Assembly: GCA_040754625.1 (NCBI GenBank)
Contig: JBFMCF010000011.1
Coordinates: forward strand, 1-54,379
Length of the DNA: 54,379 nucleotides
Source of the DNA: a bacterium
GTDB lineage: Bacteria > JACRDZ01 > JAQUKH01
Direction of reading: 5' to 3'
Both the position numbers and the translations under genes were made by a program. Below the pieces are notes generated by a model, which saw only the letters and a list, made by a program, of their open reading frames with translations, ran no database searches and was not told the DNA's origin. Shown piece by piece: positions 9,861 through 52,849 of this stretch (positions within the stretch are counted from its first letter, which is position 1; every line of letters starts with the position of its first letter).

Positions 9861-12800
9861 ACGGTTCTAAAACGGTGAACCCATTGCGCAGAACGGCCTG
9901 CTCATGCCTGGAATTTAGAATTTTTATATTATATTTCCCCTGGGATATTCCGGCAGGAACAGGGACGCTCAGATTATGATAATCGATAAAATTAACAGGC
10001 CCTGCGGTTATTTCCGCCTTAAACCTGTGTATAATCTCAAGCCCAAAGTCCGAATCGGCGATATACGCATAATCTCCCGCGATTTTTACCGCCGCGATAT
10101 GTCCTGAAGTATCAACACCTCCGGCAGGCAAAGGATATCCGGGGTCAGAAATATCAACAATTTTTAAACCGTCCCGCCCTGCCGCAATATACATGTAGTT
10201 TCCCTCAACAAAAATATCCAGGATATTCCCCTGCATTTTAAAACTTGAGGATATTTCCGGATGGCCGGGGCTTTTGACATTTATTACTGTAAATCCCTCC
10301 GCAAAATCCGCGGCATAAACATAATTTTCTGAAACGTAAACCCGGCGCACATCGCCCTTTGTTCCTGCACGGCCCATTATAAACGGTTTTTTAGGGTCGC
10401 TTATATCAACTATAAACAGCCCCGGTTTTCCCGCGGCAATATAAGCATAGAGGCCTGACACATAAACATCGTAAGCGGTCCCGATTGTATCCAGAGAACT
10501 TGCAATCACAAACTCACGAGGGTCACTGACATCGATAATATTTAATCCCCCGTCGCCGGCCGCATAAACAAAATTATCGGAAGCATGTATATCATTAACC
10601 GTGCCCGGCAAATCAATGATTCCTGTCATAACAGGATGGGAAGGATCCAGAATATTTATTATATCAATACCGCCGGATTTGTCTGCAAGGTAAATATAAC
10701 TGTCCATGATGCAAACATCCGCCGCGTCGCCGGGGACCAAGATATTTCCCGCTATTACCGGGCCGGAAGGGTCGCTTATATCTATTATTTCAAGACCCTC
10801 TTTTCCATCGGCAACATACGCATAATTTCCGGAAACACAGAGGCCCGAAGCCTGACCCGGGGTTGAAACACTGCCTGAGATGCTGGAATTAATGGGGCTT
10901 GTTATATTTATTATCTCAAGGCCTGATTTCCCGGCGGCCGCGTACACGTATTCATCTGCCACAAACAGGGCTTTTACTTCATCCGGGGTCGTTTCTCTGC
11001 CTTTTAATAAACGCGGCTGGGAGAAATCAAACAGGCTTATCACCTGCATGCCCGAGAACTTATCAGCAACATAAACGTAACCGCCCGACACGTAAATTCC
11101 CTTATCATAACGCCCTGAGGCATAAGTCCTCATCGCGTATCCGGGCGTGTCAATATTTTTTGTCATGACAGGGTGATCAGGATCATCCACATTTATTATA
11201 TCCACACCGGTCCTGCCAACGGCCGCGTAAACAAAATTGCTGTCAAAAAAAACACCAACCGCCCAATCGGAAGTTTTTAGACTGTTTGAAATAACGGGAT
11301 GCGAAGGGTCGGATATATTTACAATTGAAAGGCCCATCCAGCTATCCGCCACATAAGCGTAACTGCCGGAAACATAAACATCGCTCGCGTGACCGGGGGT
11401 ATCGATGCTTCCGGCTATGCGGGGGGCCGCCGGGTCAAATATATCGATGATCTGAAGGCCCGCGTTACGGCAGGCGACATAAGCATAGTTTCCCGAGACA
11501 TCGATACCTGAAGCATTGCCCGGAATTTTGACATTGCCGGTAAGATAAGGTTTTGAGGGGTCAACAATATTTATATTTACTATATGCAATCCGCTGTTTT
11601 TAGCGGAAACATACGCGTAACTGCCTTTAACATGGACATCCTGCGCAATATCGGAAAAGTTTATATTCCCGGATATCACAGGCCTCACCTTGTCCCGGAT
11701 ATTTATTATCTCAAGGCCTGAACTGCCGTCAGCAAGATAGGCGTAATCGCCTGCAATAAATATACCCTGGGTATCACCGGGAGTATCGACACTGCCCGAG
11801 ATGTAAGGCCCTCCCGTGCTAAAATAGACCCTGCACGTTGAATCAAAATTCTCGCCGTTGATGGTTATTGTGGCGGAAGCAGCACCGTTTGCCGGAATAA
11901 CCGATTTAATCACAGGCGGGGCGGCGTAAGACAGCCCTTTTAAAAAAATCAAAAACAGAAATAAAAACTTTTGTATAATTGAAACAATGGTGGACGCTGC
12001 TCCGGGTTTTGACAAGCGTCTTGCGTTGTCCTGCATTCTTAAAAGCTTATCTTTATCGTCCAGTAATTTATCTATTTTATAAGTTATTGTCGGAAAGTTA
12101 TTACACCTTATCGCGACTCCCTCCTCCAGAAAATGGTCAGTGTTTCGCGTTTCCTGCCCGGGAATGGGATTTACAATAACAAGCGCCAATCCCCTCGCCA
12201 GTGCTTCGGACGATGTCAAACCTCCCGCCTTTCCCACAAGAATATCAGAGGCCGCCATAAAAATATCCATTTCTTTTGTAAACCCTATAATTTTCATTGG
12301 ATGACTGGAATTTTTTGATTTCAAAAGTTTGTTTTCGAGGTTTTTGTTCTTTCCGCAGATTACAATAATCTGAACAGGATTCTTTACATTCTGGACAGAT
12401 GAAACCAGTGATTCCACAGGCCCGACCCCGAAGCCTCCCGCGGAAACCAGTATCGTTGTCCTGTCAGGATTTAAACCGAGTTTTGACCGGGTATCTTTTT
12501 TCGATTTTTCAACGGAAAAAACAGGGTCAATCGGAATACCTGTAATATGAATCCTTTCTTCCGGGACACCTAAAGCTTTGAGATATTCCTTGGTTTCTTC
12601 GATGGCAACAAAATACCAGTCAATGTCACGGAATATCCATGTCGCGTGCGCGTCGAAATCCGTAATTACTATCCCGATTTTTGAATTTATAATCCCCTTT
12701 TTTCTTAGATGAAGAAGAATTACAGGGGGCAGGAAATGCGTGCAGATTATAATATCCGGATTTTCATTCTTTATTAATTTTATCAAAGGCGTGCTGTTAA

Positions 12801-35669: not shown

Positions 35670-35723
35670 GTAGGGGCTTGATTTATCAAGCCCTCTTTTG
35701 GGTTCGATAAATCGAACCCCTAC
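35670..35723. repeat. Double-hairpin REP-like element between pstB1 and phoU
   Basis: Outer arms GTAGGGG and CCCCTAC enclose two near-perfect hairpins: GGGCTTGAT-TT-ATCAAGCCC and GGTTCGAT-AA-ATCGAACC. A second copy is at 39144-39191. The whole can fold into a cruciform or three-way structure. It ends five bases after the pstB1 stop codon. Confidence 0.8.
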
Positions 35724-35727
35724 ATTT

Positions 35728-36483
35728 TTAACCAAACCTTCCTGTTATATAATCCTCCGTCCTTTTGTCCTTAGGGGCCGTGAAAATCCTGTTTGTGTCA
35801 TCAAACTCAACCAGTTCTCCCAAAAGCAAAAATCCGGAATAATCCGAAACCCTCGCGGCCTGCTGCATATTGTGGGTGACAATCACAATAGTATAATCCT
35901 TTTTAAGGTTATTCATCAACTCTTCAATCTTCATAGTGGCAATGGGGTCCAATGTCGAACACGGCTCATCCATTAAAATGACCTCGGGCTCGATAATTAT
36001 AAGCCTCGCGATACACAATTTTTGCCTTTGATCCAGTGATAAATCCAGGGCAGGGCTGTGCAATTTATCTTTTACGTCATCCCAAAGCCACGCGTCTCTT
36101 AAACATTTTTCAATTTTATCATCCCGGACGGATTTCTGCCCGATATTATGCACCCTTAATCCGTACGTCAGATTTTCATAAATGCTTAACGGAAACGGAT
36201 TGGGATGCTGGAAAACCATGCCAATTTTTTTGCGCAATTCCGTCAAGCCGATATTGTCCTGGTAAATGTCTTTTTTGTCCAAAAGAATTTTCCCTGAAAT
36301 TTTTACGCCGTCAATTATATCATTCATCCTGTTTAACGTCCGTAAAAGAGTGGATTTCCCGCAGCCTGAAGGCCCTATCAGGGCGGTAATCCGGTTCTCC
36401 GCGATTTCCATGTCAATATTTTTCAGGGCGTGGAATTCTCCATACCATAGAGACAAATCTTTTGTCTGCATCCGAATGTCCAT
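35728..36483 (-). CDS. pstB: Phosphate ABC transporter ATPase with degenerate signature (PstB1)
   Basis: 251 residues. Walker [10 protein letters not shown] (37-45), Q-loop Gln92 (VFQHPNPFP), Walker B ILMDEP with Glu173, switch His204 ([13 protein letters not shown]) are all standard PstB. The ABC signature is not: where PstB has [13 protein letters not shown] this protein has [13 protein letters not shown] (148-160), losing both glycines. It lies 208 bases downstream of a second, complementary PstB (36692-37444). Likely partner in an asymmetric ATPase dimer for the PstC1/PstA1 permease. Confidence 0.9.
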
Positions 36484-36691: not shown

Positions 36692-37444
36692 TCAGCCGAA
36701 CCTTCCCGTTATATAATCATCCGTTCTCTTGTCCTTCGGCACAGTAAAAACCTGTTTGCTTTCACCATATTCTATCAATTCACCCATCAGGAGAAACGCC
36801 ACTTTATCCGCGACGCGCGCGGCCTGCTTTGTGTTATTCGTTACTATTATTATCGTGTATTTTTCCTTCAATCTGAGCATTGCCTCTTCGATCTTCGCTG
36901 TCGAGATCGGATCAAGGCTTGAACATGGTTCATCCAAAAGAATTATCTCCGGCTGCAGCGCGAGCGTTCTTGCTATACACAATCTCTGTTTCTGGCCGCC
37001 CGACAAAGACAGTGCCGACTGGTTAAGCCGGTCTTTGACTTCGTCCCACAAAAACGCCTGCCTCAAACTATGTTCCACCAATTCATCCAGTTTTTTCCTG
37101 TAAACTATCCCGGCAAGCCTCGGCCCGTAGATAATATTTTCATAAATCGATCTCGGCAGCGGCACAGGCTGGGCGAAAACCATCCCCACCCTGCGCCTCA
37201 GATCAGAAACATTCGTATCTTCCGAATATATATCTTTGTCGTCGATATAGACATCGCCTTCTTTTCGCGTGTTATAAGTGGCGTCCTCCAGTCTGTTTAT
37301 CAGCCTTAAAAGTGTTGTCTTCCCGCTTCCCGCCGGCCCGATTATGGCAAGGATCTCATTTTTTGACACTTCAATATTTACTGAATTTAAAACCTTCCTG
37401 TCTTCAAAATAAAAATTCAGATTTTTTATAAGGATTTTGGCCAT
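36692..37444 (-). CDS. pstB: Phosphate ABC transporter ATPase with altered Q- and H-loops (PstB2)
   Basis: 250 residues. Walker A GPAGSGKTT (36-44), perfect signature LSGGQKQRL (147-155) and Walker B ILLDEP with Glu172. The Q-loop reads VFAQPVPLP (Ala91 where Gln is expected) and the switch-region reads VTNNTKQAARVAD (Asn203 in place of the switch His). These changes affect the ATP site built on this subunit's Walker motifs, the same composite site that would receive the degenerate signature of PstB1. Starts one base after pstA1 ends. Confidence 0.9.
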   Translation of the reverse strand: MAKILIKNLNFYFEDRKVLNSVNIEVSKNEILAIIGPAGSGKTTLLRLINRLEDATYNTRKEGDVYIDDKDIYSEDTNVSDLRRRVGMVFAQPVPLPRSIYENIIYGPRLAGIVYRKKLDELVEHSLRQAFLWDEVKDRLNQSALSLSGGQKQRLCIARTLALQPEIILLDEPCSSLDPISTAKIEEAMLRLKEKYTIIIVTNNTKQAARVADKVAFLLMGELIEYGESKQVFTVPKDKRTDDYITGRFG

Positions 37445-39143: not shown

Positions 39144-39191
39144 GTAGGGGCTTGATTTATCAAGCCCGGGTTCGATAAATCGAATCCCTAC
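39144..39191. repeat. Double-hairpin REP-like element between pstS1 and pstC1
   Basis: Second copy of the 35670-35723 element: GTAGGGGCTTGATTTATCAAGCCC joined directly to GGGTTCGATAAATCGAATCCCTAC. Its right end supplies the TAG stop codon of pstS1 (39188-39190 on minus), so the element has invaded exactly at the 3' end of the gene. Confidence 0.8.
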
Positions 39192-39991
39192 ATTAAATGT
39201 TTTACCGCGATTAATCCTTCCTTCTCCATAAATTCCTGGCCCTCATCCGACAGGACAAAATCCACAAAATCCTTAGCGTCCTTTTTTAACTCTCCGGTAT
39301 AAACAAAAAGGAACGGCCGCATAAAATTATATTTTTTTTCTTTCACAGCCGCCCTGTCGGGCAAAATCCCGTCAATTTTTATCGCCTTCACATCCTTGTC
39401 CACAAGCCCTAAAGAAATATACGCGACCGACCATGGGTCCGCTTTTACGATTTCCCTGACTGATCCATTGGAATCCTGGACCATACAGGCGTTTGATATT
39501 GGAATTTCTTTCATCACCAGTTCCTGGAACGCGCCGCGTGTACCTGAACCGTCCTCGCGGGTAATCGCGTTAATCTCCTTGTCTTCCCCGCCCAGTTCCT
39601 TCCAGTTTAAAATTTTACGGCTGAAAATTTTTCTGATATCTTCAAGCGAGATATTTTCAATTTTATTCCGCGGGTTGAGTATCACGATAACGGCATCGTA
39701 GGCTATCGGAACAATTTTAAGTTCTTTTTCCTCTTCAGCGCTTAAATGCCTTGAGGACATCCCGATATCGGCTGTTCCGCATAACGCAGACTGGATCCCG
39801 GCGCTGGATCCGCCCCCCTGGACATTGATTTCAACCGTTTTGTGTTTCTGAGAATAGGCCTCTTCCAAACCCTCCACAAAAGGCTGGACGGAGGTGGATC
39901 CGGCTATTACCAGGGCCTTGCCGGCGCCGCCTTTATCGCAGGAAATAAATGGCAGGACAAAAAGAATTATATAAAAATATTTCTTCAACAT
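39188..39991 (-). CDS. pstS: Phosphate-binding lipoprotein PstS1
   Basis: 267 residues from the start at 39991, giving a normal lipoprotein leader (MLKKYFYIILFVLPFISC). The frame is open to 40123, but that part runs back through the end of pstB3. Binding-protein marks: IAGSTSVQPFVEGLEE, VQGGGSSAGIQSALCGTADIGMSSR, TREDGSGTRGAFQELVM. A consensus promoter ends 7 bases before the ATG and no Shine-Dalgarno is visible, so the message may be leaderless. The stop codon lies inside the REP-like element at 39144-39191. Confidence 0.88.
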   Translation of the reverse strand: MLKKYFYIILFVLPFISCDKGGAGKALVIAGSTSVQPFVEGLEEAYSQKHKTVEINVQGGGSSAGIQSALCGTADIGMSSRHLSAEEEKELKIVPIAYDAVIVILNPRNKIENISLEDIRKIFSRKILNWKELGGEDKEINAITREDGSGTRGAFQELVMKEIPISNACMVQDSNGSVREIVKADPWSVAYISLGLVDKDVKAIKIDGILPDRAAVKEKKYNFMRPFLFVYTGELKKDAKDFVDFVLSDEGQEFMEKEGLIAVKHLM

Positions 39992-40031: not shown

Positions 40032-40790
40032 TTACCCAAATCTTCCTGTGATATACGCCTCGGTTTTTTTATCTTTGGGATTTGTAAATATTTCCCGGGT
40101 TTTGCCGAATTCAACCAACTCACCTAAGAGAAAAAACGCCGTCCAATCGGAAACACGGGCCGCCTGCTGCATATTATGAGTAACTATCACAATTGTATAA
40201 TTTTGTTTCAGGTGAAGAATCAATTCTTCTATTTTTGTGGTGGAAATGGGATCAAGCGCCGAACACGGCTCATCAAACAGGATGACCTCCGGCTTGACCG
40301 CAAGGGCCCTCGCGATACAAAGCCTTTGCTGCTGCCCTCCCGAAAGGCTCATGCCGGGAGCTTTAAGCTTATCCTTAACTTCATCCCACAGTGCCGCTCT
40401 TTTCAGGGATTCTTCCACAATTTCATCCAGATAAGATTTTTTGCTGATACCGTTTAATTTTAAGCCGACAGAAACATTTCCATAGATGGAAAGCGCGGGA
40501 AACGGGGTAGGTTTTTGAAAAACCATCCCGACTTTTTGCCGAAGCTCAATCGGATCGACATCCCGGTCATAAATATTTTTATCATCAAGCAGGACCTCAC
40601 CATTGACGCTGGTATCCGGTATAACCTCATGCATCCTGTTTAAACAGCGTATAAAAGTGGATTTGCCGCATCCTGAAGGGCCTATAATCGCGGTGGCAAC
40701 TCTTTCCTCGATGTTCATGTTTATATTTTTTACAGCATGAACTTTGCCAAAATAGGCATTCAGATTTTTAGTTATTATTTTGTTTGTCAT
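40032..40790 (-). CDS. pstB: Phosphate ABC transporter ATPase PstB3 (canonical)
   Basis: 252 residues with all motifs intact: [10 protein letters not shown]-loop [34 protein letters not shown] and [13 protein letters not shown]. Follows pstA2 after 50 bases and so probably powers the PstC2/PstA2 permease as a homodimer. Contrast with the altered PstB1/PstB2 pair downstream. Confidence 0.94.
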
Positions 40791-43608: not shown

Positions 43609-44655
43609 CTATCTTACCTGTATTTCACTGATTTTTTTCTCGATCTTTTTTACAAGGCTGTCCGGCAATGGGGCATATAACAACTCCGGCGCGTATTTCT
43701 GGCCGTCTGTCACCGCCCAATTTAAAAATCTGACTATTTTTTCACCTTTGGCCTTGTCATTCTGATTTTTGTAAACAAGTATCCATGTTAATCCGGCAAC
43801 GGGATAAGCGTCTTTTCCCGGAGGATTAACCAGTGAAACCCTGAAATCAGACGGCATTGTATCAACCTTCGCGTCCAGGGCCCTTGTAACGCTCTCTAAA
43901 CTGGGAGTAATAAAATTCCCCGCCGAGTTTTTAATGTCGCCGTATGGAAGTTTGTTTTTTACCGCGTAAGCCAGCTCCACATAACCTATGCTTCCCGGTG
44001 TCTGTTTAACAAGGCCCGTCACTCCTTCATTGCCTTTTCCGCCCAGACCAACCGGCCAATTGATAGAAGTACCTTTTCCAACTTTGGACTTCCATACACC
44101 TGAGATCTCCGAAAGATAATCGACAAAAATATATGTTGTGCCGCTGCCGTCCGAACGATGGACCACGACAATTTTTTTATCAGGAAGATTTACGCCGGGA
44201 TTGTCCCGCGCAATCTTCTGGTCATTCCATTTTTTGATCTTTCCCATAAAAATATCGGCAACCACATCCGGGCTGAATCGTAGGGGCGAATGATTATTCG
44301 CCCTTACATCCGGCAGATTGTAGGTTAGAACTACCGCTCCGGCCACCATAGGGATATGAAACATTTCACCTCCGGCCTTATTGAGCTGTTCATCGGTCAT
44401 AGGGCCGTCTGTCGCTCCGAAATCCACGGTTTTTTCAGTGATCTGCCTTATCCCGCCGCCGGAACCGATGGACTGGTAATTGAAATTCACCGTTTCGTCT
44501 ATCTTCGCGTATTCGTAAAACCATTTTGAATAAATCGGATATGGGAACGTGGCGCCCGCCCCGTTGATTAAAAGAAGCCTGACCGCTAAAACGTTCGTCA
44601 TTCCTATATACAATAAAGTTAGACCGGTTATTAAGATACAAAATATTTTTCCCAT
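43609..44655 (-). CDS. pstS: Phosphate-binding protein PstS2 carrying an in-frame palindromic insert
   Basis: 348 residues from the start at 44655, which has AGGAGG six bases upstream. Signal peptide, then LLINGAGATFPYPIYSKW, YQSIGSGGGIRQI, VDFGATDGPM, GKIKKWNDQKIARDNPG, VVHRSDGSGTTYIF and KVGKGTSINWPVGLGGKGN, all classic high-affinity PstS contacts. Between TYNLPDV and LRFSPDVV, where relatives have one or two residues, lies the extra peptide RANNHSP (about residues 118-124), encoded by a 28-bp palindrome (44280-44307). The loop should lie at the surface. Third gene of the Pho-box unit with psiE and the porin. Confidence 0.92.
   Translation of the reverse strand: MGKIFCILITGLTLLYIGMTNVLAVRLLLINGAGATFPYPIYSKWFYEYAKIDETVNFNYQSIGSGGGIRQITEKTVDFGATDGPMTDEQLNKAGGEMFHIPMVAGAVVLTYNLPDVRANNHSPLRFSPDVVADIFMGKIKKWNDQKIARDNPGVNLPDKKIVVVHRSDGSGTTYIFVDYLSEISGVWKSKVGKGTSINWPVGLGGKGNEGVTGLVKQTPGSIGYVELAYAVKNKLPYGDIKNSAGNFITPSLESVTRALDAKVDTMPSDFRVSLVNPPGKDAYPVAGLTWILVYKNQNDKAKGEKIVRFLNWAVTDGQKYAPELLYAPLPDSLVKKIEKKISEIQVR
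44280..44307. repeat. REP-like palindrome inserted in the pstS2 coding sequence
   Basis: GTAGGGGCGAAT, loop GATT, ATTCGCCCTTAC. The GTAGGGG end is shared with the intergenic elements at 35670 and 39144. It adds about seven residues in frame to PstS2. Confidence 0.7.
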
Positions 44656-44761
44656 ATTTCCTCCTATCATAAATTAAAATTGTGGTGCCATCATGCAACC
44701 ATCAAATTTTGTGCGAAGCACACATTAATTTTGCATTTTACATTTTGAATTTTGAATTTCT

Positions 44762-47231: not shown

Positions 47232-48713
47232 TTACTTCCCTTTCTCCCCCAAATCCTCTGCTATCTCCTGTAATTGTTCCAATGCGGCCTGCAAGTCTTC
47301 AACTAATTCATTGGCTAAAACATCCGGCCCGGGAAGATTATCAACATCTTCAAGGCTTTCGTCCTTTATCCAGAAAATGTCCAGATTCACTTTGTCTCTT
47401 TTAAGTATCTCATCAATTCCAAAGCACCTCCATCTGCCGCCGGGATTCTTTTTTGAAAAAGTTTCCCTTCGGTCAAACCGGTTTTCTGGGCTATAACAAT
47501 TAACAAAATCGCTAAGGTCTGATTCTTTAAGCGTGTTTTCTTTCAAAGTGAAATGCATGTTTGTTCTTAAATCGTATATCCATACTTTTTTTGTTGAATA
47601 ATCTTTTGACGCCTCTTTTTTATCAAAGAAAAGAACATTGGCCTTAACGCCCTGCGCATAAAAAATACCTGTGGGCAGTCTTAAAATCGTATGGAGGTCG
47701 CACGATTGCAGGAGTTTTTTTCTTATTGTTTCACCCGCGCCGCCTTCAAACAATACATTATCAGGCAAAACTATCGCGGCTTTCCCGTTTATTTTAAGGA
47801 TGCTTCTCACATGCTGTAAAAAATTAAGCTGTTTGTTGGATGTCTGCGCCCAGAAATCATCCCTTAATACAGTCAGGGACTGGGCCACAGTCTTTCCTTC
47901 TTCTGTAATGATTTTTTCTGATGACTTTTTACCAAAAGGCGGATTAGTCAACACCATGTCATATATAGCCCCGGGATTTTTTCTCAGAGAATCATCAGAG
48001 CTTATTGGTGTTTCCTCTCCGTTTACGCCATGCAGGTAAAGATTCATTACACATAAACGGGCGGCCAAAGGAACAATCTCATTTCCAGTAAACGTATTAT
48101 GCTTTAATTCGTGTTTCTGATCTTTGTTCATTTTACTATGCGCCACAATATAGTTATAAGCTGATAGCAAGAACCCTCCTGTCCCACACGCAGGGTCATG
48201 TATCTTCATACCAGTCATAGGCTGCATAACTTTTACAATAGCATTTATTAACGGCCTTGGAGTAAAATACTGTCCGGCTCCGCCCTTAACGTCAGCGGCA
48301 TTCTTTTCAAGTAAACCTTCATAAGCATTACCCTTAACATCCACCTCTAAATTTAACCATTCTTCTTTATCAATAAGGTCTGCAATGAGCTTCCGAAGTT
48401 TTGCCGGGTCTTGGATCTTGTTTTGCGCTTTTCTGAAAATAACGCCGATAATGCCTTCCTCTTTTCCAAGTTCCGTAAGCAGTTTCATATAATGCGCCTC
48501 AAGTTCCGCGCCGTCTTTTTCAATCAAGGACAGCCAGTTATACTCTTTTGGAATATCTGATTTTTTCTTTAACAGCTTAACCCTCTCATCATCCATCTTT
48601 AAAAAAAGAAGAAAGGTTAACTGCTCAACATAATCCCCATACGATAAACCGTCATCCCGCAAAATATCGCAGTAATTCCATAACTTGCTTACTAATTGTT
48701 TAGAGTCACTCAT
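47232..48713 (-). CDS. hsdM: Type I restriction-modification DNA methyltransferase subunit HsdM
   Basis: 493 residues. N-terminal HsdM helical domain (LWNYCDILRDDGLSYGDYVEQL), then the N6-adenine methylase: AdoMet site DPACGTGG (173-180), GQYFTP (147-152), catalytic NPPF (257-260). It should methylate adenine only when complexed with a specificity subunit. Its start overlaps the natural stop of the AlbA_2 gene by 4 bases. No hsdS or hsdR lies anywhere in the window; downstream is an ImmA remnant. Confidence 0.93.
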   Translation of the reverse strand: MSDSKQLVSKLWNYCDILRDDGLSYGDYVEQLTFLLFLKMDDERVKLLKKKSDIPKEYNWLSLIEKDGAELEAHYMKLLTELGKEEGIIGVIFRKAQNKIQDPAKLRKLIADLIDKEEWLNLEVDVKGNAYEGLLEKNAADVKGGAGQYFTPRPLINAIVKVMQPMTGMKIHDPACGTGGFLLSAYNYIVAHSKMNKDQKHELKHNTFTGNEIVPLAARLCVMNLYLHGVNGEETPISSDDSLRKNPGAIYDMVLTNPPFGKKSSEKIITEEGKTVAQSLTVLRDDFWAQTSNKQLNFLQHVRSILKINGKAAIVLPDNVLFEGGAGETIRKKLLQSCDLHTILRLPTGIFYAQGVKANVLFFDKKEASKDYSTKKVWIYDLRTNMHFTLKENTLKESDLSDFVNCYSPENRFDRRETFSKKNPGGRWRCFGIDEILKRDKVNLDIFWIKDESLEDVDNLPGPDVLANELVEDLQAALEQLQEIAEDLGEKGK

Positions 48714-50145
48714 TTTTTATCTCTTCCTTCCGGTAAGCTCAGGACAAGCCAATGCCCGCCTTTATCAGGGCCAACTCTCTTGATGAGACCTTTTTCTTTG
48801 AGTTTGTTTATATTATAATCCACAGCTTTTTTAGTCAGATTTCCTTCTTGTTGCAATATTTTTTTACTTATAGCAGGATTTTTAAGGATATACTCTATAA
48901 TGGTTTGCTGTATTACCGATATTTTTTCTACCCCCTGTTCTACCCCCCTGTTCTACCCCCTGTTCTACCCCCTGCTTCCTATCCAAATAAAACATAATCT
49001 TATAATAATCGAAATCACCTTCAACTTTCGGCTTCCTTTTGTAATAAGATGTCCAACCATTGAACATCTTATGAAAACCTGAACCAATATTTTCGGAAAG
49101 TTTTATAGTCCTGAAAAATCCTTGCAATAGTACTGTTCCTCGGCATTGAAAATTCTTCTTTCAGGATATACTTTACATCTTTCGGTAACGCGCCGGGATT
49201 AAAAAACTCTATTCTGTCGGAAAGAATACGTATTCGTGGTTTTGCGTTGGAAAAATAATCCGTATGCATAAGCAGGTTAACAAGCGCTTCGCGAATAGCT
49301 ATAACCTGAGGCTGGTTTTCATCGCGGGAAAAACCTTTAAGCTTAAAAGGAACATTGATATGCCTCAATAATTTCTCAAGTATCGAGAAATAGTATTCAT
49401 ATAAATTTTTCTGGACAGGCATCCGGTAATCATACCTGTTTTGAGCGTCGGCAAAAGAAGTCCCCATGACTTCAAGATATTCGACCCTGAAATCCGAGAC
49501 AGTCCTGTTTACGATTTCTTCCGTTCCGAAAACAAGCGCCCCGCCCGCTGTTACCCTGCCGTCAATAATAACCCGCATAAGTTCAAGCATCCGCTCAGCG
49601 GAAACTTCATTGTAGCGATGCTCAGGCTCTATGGATTTTAAGAAGGTTCTGTACCTTTTAACGGTTTCTTTATCGAGGTCTTTAAAAGTATATTTAGTGG
49701 GCTCTTCGTCTTTTTTATCAAAGGAAGAGTTCCGGTATAGCGCGTCTATCTCTTCTTTTGTCGCTCTCTGGTCTCCGCTTCCTGTTCTGATAAACGTGTT
49801 TGAAAGGGAGTTAAAATATACCGGTTTGTCCTTTGGATAAACGGAAAGGATATTAAACGCAAGCACGCTTTTGCCTTCAATGGAATATTTTTTTGCTTCG
49901 ACTTTAATTTTCCTGTTAAATTTATCACTCCTTAAGGCAGTAAGAAAATCCTGCTCTATTTTTTCAGGGTTATCAATACCCGTCACTGAATATTCCTTCC
50001 CTTTCTTTGACACCCCAAAGATCAACCAACCGCCCGCGGTATTACAGAACGCGCTTACCGTTTCCCACGAGTTTTTCGGCACGGCGGATTTAGCCTCCTT
50101 CACCTCAAAATCCTGCCATTTATTAATCAGTTCTTGTTTTTTCAT
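48710..50145 (-). pseudogene. Schlafen AlbA_2 / HATPase-type ATP-binding regulator, broken by two frameshifts
   Basis: Start at 50145 (MKKQELINKWQDFEVKEAK). Residues 1-120 form an AlbA_2 domain (FCNTAGGWLIFGVSKKGKEY), followed by the putative ATP-binding part (IREALVNLLMHTDYFS, IRILSDRIEFFNPGALP). Frame 1 ends at 49069, but the family's next block, FRTIKLSENIGSGFHKMFNGW, is in another frame; removing one T from the T5 run near 49105-49110 joins them. A second break is in a 12-bp tandem repeat (CAGGGGGTAGAA, GVEQ): one copy has six G instead of five. Corrected, the protein continues as KISVIQQTIIEYILKNPAI, then a winged helix and GGHWLV, ending at 48710. Confidence 0.75.
48914..48975. repeat. 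12-bp tandem repeat encoding GVEQ, with one slipped copy
   Basis: Minus-strand unit CAGGGGGTAGAA is present about four times; the third-read copy has G6 instead of G5. The copy at about 52758-52800 has the same repeat with GVEK/GVEQ units. Variable repeat number or G-count would switch the C-terminal helix-turn-helix in and out of frame. Confidence 0.7.
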
Positions 50146-52568: not shown

Positions 52569-52849
52569 CTATTTCGCAATCCAATGCCCGCCTTTATCAG
52601 GGCCAACTCTCTTGATGAGACCTTTTTCTTTGAGTTTATTTATATTATAATCCACAGCTTTTTTAGTCAGATTTCCTTCTTGTTGCAATATTTTTTTACT
52701 TATAGCGGGATTTTTAAGGATATACTCTATAATGGTTTGCTGTATTACCGATATTTTTTCTACCCCCTGTTCTACCCCCTTTTCTACTCCCTGCTTTCTA
52801 TCCAGATAAAATGTTATCTTTAGTAATCGAAATCCCCTTCCACAATCAA
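52569..52849 (-). pseudogene. Duplicated 3' tail of the AlbA_2 ATP-binding gene
   Basis: Plus bases 52581-52846 repeat 48749-49022 almost base for base over the first ~200 bp. Minus-strand reading gives VEGDFDY, a one-base deletion, then KITFYLDRKQGVEKGVEQGV, then EKISVIQQ and the same winged helix ending GGHWIAK and TAG at 52569-52571. The 5' part of the gene is missing: the tail abuts the stop codon of the DUF1016 gene. Same strand and same orientation as the larger copy. Confidence 0.75.

Follow-up and report, generated by a model that had tools for sequence, protein, structure and literature searches.

A GTAG-type REP element translated in frame within a PstS-type gene of an uncultured bacterial lineage

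GTAG is the recognition and guide tetranucleotide of TnpAREP (PMC8266576), and REPs of the GTAG superfamily carry it at the foot of a 6-13 bp hairpin. Di Nocera, De Gregorio and Rocco (2013; PMC3733652) catalogued GTAG REPs in frame in ORFs, palindromes of 20-40 nt that lie wholly within the coding sequence and are translated, in unrelated host proteins such as RNA helicases and tRNA synthetases. Quentin et al. (2018; PMC6006769) described REPs in frame inside tnpAREP itself, between the HuH and Y motifs, along with the "double foot" REPs of subclass 2.4, which have GTAG at one end and CTAC at the other (criterion GT[AG]G 5' and C[TC]AC 3'). The palindromic repeats of Rickettsia (RPE) are also translated in frame in conserved proteins. 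RPE-4/6 carry a CGTC tag, and no transposase association is reported for CGTC repeats (PMC3733652); other RPEs are longer, at 105-146 bp (review PMC2229807).

We analyzed a 54,379-nt stretch of bacterial DNA (the window), in which a sequence-only reading had pointed to a palindrome at 44280-44307, in frame in PstS and read as VRANNHSPLR. Both the sequence and the intact ORF of 353 codons (43609-44670, minus strand) agree with that description. The features of the locus are as follows:
43609-44670, minus strand: pstS-type phosphate-binding protein gene, 353 aa (PBP_like_2, E 1.1e-38), which holds the REP
44280-44307, unstranded: GTAG-type REP, near "double foot" (GTAG foot, 8-bp stem, 4-nt loop, TTAC foot)
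44280-44283, plus strand: GTAG foot, the TnpAREP recognition/guide tetranucleotide
44284-44291, plus strand: left stem arm, GGGCGAAT
44292-44295, plus strand: loop, GATT
44296-44303, plus strand: right stem arm, ATTCGCCC
44304-44307, plus strand: second foot TTAC (CTAC with one substitution; reverse complement GTAA, 3/4)

The element, GTAGGGGCGAATGATTATTCGCCCTTAC, is a perfect 8-bp hairpin with GTAG/TTAC feet, laid out over its 28 nt as GTAGGGGCGAAT GATT ATTCGCCCTTAC. Its stem directly follows GTAG (44280-44303), as in the GTAG REP superfamily, and its TTAC end differs by one substitution from the CTAC of double-foot REPs. We classify it as a near "double-foot" GTAG REP, i.e. a non-autonomous miniature element. 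The coding strand is read through it as GTA AGG GCG AAT AAT CAT TCG CCC CTA C, and this length of nine codons plus one base encodes PstS residues 122-131 (V R A N N H S P L and the first base of R). An ordinary loop-length difference that is palindromic by chance was considered, as the net difference from relatives is only four residues; we rejected it and accord it a probability close to nil, since the genome has two further exact copies of the 24-nt core GTAGGGGCGAATGATTATTCGCCC, at C39:3767 and C62:3518 (one intergenic and one within an Lhr-type helicase gene), shuffling of the window gave 0 matches in 100 shuffles with 3 mismatches tolerated, and the RNA hairpin is stable at -13.8 kcal/mol (z -5.1 against shuffles of itself). 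The copy at C62:3518 is a perfect GTAG...CTAC element, and a variant of the core occurs at C78:6411.

The same family is present elsewhere in the window, where two intergenic doublets were found:
35670-35723, unstranded: intergenic REP doublet, two hairpins with GTAG feet outermost
39144-39191, unstranded: second intergenic REP doublet
Both doublets have the sequence GTAGGGG in common with the pstS REP, just as had been claimed for nearby intergenic elements. Repeats of other kinds were also observed in the window. Two copies of about 203 nt (48745-49001 and 52577-52820; 99% identity), with a 58-nt repeat (88%) after them, begin just beside a type I restriction methylase-like gene (47232-48713). 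Several diverged repeats of 62-70 nt, often spaced near 126 nt, lie in one coding stretch at 10393-11760 that looks like a repeat protein. Three diverged ATPase-like segments (35804-35993, 36768-36957 and 40108-40297; 61-74% identical) are probably paralogous pstB-type genes, and near 39515-39946 lies the coding sequence of another, distant PstS-like protein.

The REP census of the genome was built on the surroundings of its 91 GTAGGGGC sites (61 stretches, 437 kb including the window), and elements elsewhere without that octamer are missed by its counts. A hairpin was counted if the GTAG foot matched at least three of four bases and the stem was paired, and gene positions are ORF and codon-usage calls made in this analysis. 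The scan recovered 77 GTAG-foot hairpins, against 3 in a reversed-sequence control: 33 were intergenic, 23 touched or lay near gene edges, and 21 were internal to ORFs. With 90% of the sampled bases coding, this last share shows that REPs are not favoured in ORFs. The sampled copies are dispersed as singles and doublets, which fits the GTAG REP superfamily. Alignment of 34 distinct 28-mers shows no variation at the GG and CCC positions and compensated variation in the inner stem, a pattern that fits the published description of GTAG REPs. Paired cells amount to 98.5%, but since the scan itself required pairing, independent evidence comes only from the variety of pairs; double changes number 78, against 21 expected from shuffles. 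The pstS element belongs to this dispersed GTAG-REP family. Double-foot copies make up 8 of the 21 hairpins inside genes and 9 of the 56 elsewhere (P 0.06), an enrichment that is only suggestive.

Recurrence inside other ORFs, a check put forward by the sequence-only reading, was seen both in the 21 ORF-internal hairpins and in the exact core in the Lhr-type helicase, which is read AGANNHSPLP in the same frame as in pstS. Among genes with Pfam support, in-frame REPs also occur in valyl-tRNA synthetase (ValS), an FtsX-type permease, DnaX, a PyrK-type subunit, a NadD-type enzyme and a PdxA-type enzyme; tyrosyl-tRNA synthetase (TyrRS) has two copies, one close to the N-terminus, an M29-type peptidase ORF likewise has two, and a GH57 enzyme has a degenerate one. 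Relative to the nearest solved relatives, GH57 is longer by 9 residues exactly at the REP and the PyrK-type subunit by 5 residues at the REP. The best solved relatives of the NadD-type enzyme are much shorter at the REP, but loop length varies among NadD proteins and the excess of about 23 residues is larger than the REP, so this case was rejected as a clean insertion.

The apparent frame bias, for which the sequence-only reading had proposed a test, needs no special mechanism. ORF-internal REPs were observed in phases with counts of 13, 8 and 0; the absent third phase has P 0.0002 and the difference between the two open phases P 0.38. A REP is readable in only two frames because GTAG places TAG in the third, and a strong frame preference was rejected on these grounds. 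The double-foot ORF copies with GAAT/GAAC (in PstS, Lhr, the FtsX-type and M29-type genes and TyrRS) all five use one frame, [VAT]xAN..PL, which is shared by the relic described below in the sister species.

The host protein appears to tolerate its insert, as had been proposed. The gene product is PstS-type (Pfam PBP_like_2), with PstS proteins as its best solved relatives. An AlphaFold model built with 25 sequences has a mean pLDDT of 90.5 and shows the PstS fold intact, with 8ods as the best fold match (TM 0.92 by target). Eight phosphate ligands, which we take to correspond to those of E. coli PstS (T, F, S, D, R, S, G, T), are all present as T41, F42, S70, D88, R172, S176, G177 and T178; in the alignment seven are invariant and T41 nearly so. 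In the model the REP block (121-130) connects a long strand to the helix that follows it through a short helix and a loop, with a mean pLDDT of 77 against 95-98 on both flanks. Its position, its length variation and this lower model confidence suggest that the REP-bearing loop is at the protein surface, and the REP peptide is most likely neutral in such an exposed loop.

We aligned the loop across about 65 homologues and counted its length between VLTYNL and GK. It has 31 residues in the window species, 30 in the sister species JAQUKH01 (PstS 85% identical) and 26-29 in every homologue outside the genus. None of the homologues outside the genus carried the REP residues, so the case that would have spoken against an insertion, the same residues in distant PstS proteins without the palindrome, was not encountered in this set. 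The extra residues are confined to the genus as anticipated, but the net gain over typical relatives is about 4 residues (31 against 27; 12 nt), not 7-8 or 9. A clean 28-nt empty site was not found, relatives outside the genus differing by about 12 nt only. The gain of 12 nt falls short of the 28 nt of the element, which implies that the old loop was partly replaced or the element trimmed later: the insertion may have cost the old loop about 16 nt, immediately or subsequently, or part of the GTA and CTAC ends may have been there beforehand.

The sister pstS reads GTG TCG AAC AGC CGT TCG TCC TTA C at the loop and contains the 14-mer CGAACAGCCGTTCG, which has one further occurrence in both genomes together, inside the REP of the FtsX-type gene of the window genome; the sister pstS thus also holds a REP. 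Compared with the window copy, its core differs by two compensated base pairs (four positions) and has a 3-nt deletion. Its hairpin is weaker (-5.2 kcal/mol, z -1.9), and the in-register self-complementarity of the loop has P 0.004-0.007 against synonymous recoding. The simplest account is one insertion before the two species separated, which has stayed intact here and is decaying in the sister. Two independent REP insertions at one loop, or later conversion by another copy, would instead make this loop a recurrent REP target. The full compensation of the differing pairs would suit such events, as would the occurrence of each core elsewhere as a separate REP. In ValS, moreover, the loop that carries the REP in the window species lacks it in the sister, where another loop holds a different REP (GTAGGGGCGATTCATGAATCGCCC, translated as VGAIHESP); REP gain therefore continued after the split. 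The pstS loops agree, however, in position, in the flanking codons CGA TTC AGC CCG GAT and in the TTAC/CTAC end, for which a single insertion followed by change is simpler, and we consider the recurrent-target account possible but doubtful. For Lhr, no match was found in the sister genome, which leaves no sister comparison. The ValS loops (L169:3012-3090; sister L195) also hold short tandem stretches, ACGGAACACGAATCACGAA here and AAGTCACAAGTCACAAGTCAC in the sister, and so collect several kinds of repeat DNA.

A probable link to transposition is provided by the Y1_Tnp genes of the window genome, located on C76, C41, C136, C60 and C93, the last two with REPs inside the gene:
C60:22795-23280: Y1_Tnp gene with internal in-frame REP just after the MPNHxH motif
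C93 (L175:2820-3572): Y1_Tnp gene with internal in-frame REP just after the MPNHxH motif
A survey of RAYT-type genes over 145 genomes (80 stretches) yielded 83 genes with both conserved parts. A GTAG REP hairpin lies in the loop after the HuH motif in 45 of these, from 22 genomes (L200-L275) and with the genes of the window genome among them, each with its own core, and 42 of the 45 can be read through in frame with no stop codon. Such a hairpin was seen in 0 of 166 adjacent segments from these genes, and codon-shuffled loops gave 0.2 hairpins on average. The survey independently reproduces the report on TnpAREP subclass 2.4 (PMC6006769) and extends it to uncultured lineages; the window-genome RAYTs resemble that subclass in their internal REPs after the HuH motif. 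A REP housed in the gene of its own transposase has to be compatible with translation, and this may explain why other genes tolerate the family. It is also conceivable, if unlikely, that the GAAT/GAAC double-foot subfamily has adapted to intragenic life, with REP turnover persisting at fixed permissive loops and the transposase-borne REP acting as a source of ready in-frame peptides.

Taken together, it is very likely that a near double-foot GTAG REP, probably spread by RAYT/TnpAREP, entered the PstS loop before the split of the two species and is most likely neutral there. The single-strand transposases of the same genome would probably have dispersed the REP copies, one of which would have landed in the loop that joins the TYNLP end of a strand to the helix LRFSPDVV, replacing about 16 nt of old loop and leaving a peptide that is presumably neutral. 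Survival of the REP in pstS would follow from the lack of a stop in the frame used, a net change that is a multiple of three, and the location of the loop, exposed and at a distance from the phosphate site. Alternatively, the hairpin could be kept for a role in pst operon mRNA or DNA (pausing, processing or stability), with the peptide as a by-product. Such a role would accord with the stability of the hairpin and with the ability of REPs to act as RNA elements (PMC3733652), but the sister copy has lost most of its stability while keeping the frame, and REPs of the family occur in many unrelated genes; we hold this explanation to be very improbable.

Compared with described systems, the pstS REP resembles the intragenic GTAG REPs (PMC3733652) in its tag, its size and its translation within an ORF, and differs from them in the organism. 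It differs from the double-foot REPs inside tnpAREP (PMC6006769) in its pstS location and in the single substitution of its second foot. The kinship with Rickettsia RPE suggested by the sequence-only reading is not supported: the tag is GTAG rather than CGTC (PMC3733652), the other RPEs are much longer, the lineage is different, and the sister genome is an environmental MAG; the element belongs with the GTAG REPs associated with RAYT/TnpAREP. That reading also knew of no precedent in PstS. No PstS example was found in the main texts of PMC3733652 and PMC6006769, although in-frame REPs in genes are already published there. An in-frame translated REP is not novel, and the pstS case is a solid new example of a described phenomenon. 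Within a single genus of an uncultured lineage it joins three known observations: GTAG REPs as such, their in-frame presence in housekeeping proteins, and their in-frame presence in the transposase. The sister species supplies before-and-after comparisons (PstS, ValS). It also carries a warning that lineage-specific peptides in metagenome-assembled bacteria, such as VGAGxKPAxT and ANNHSPL, may be translated REPs and not functional inserts.
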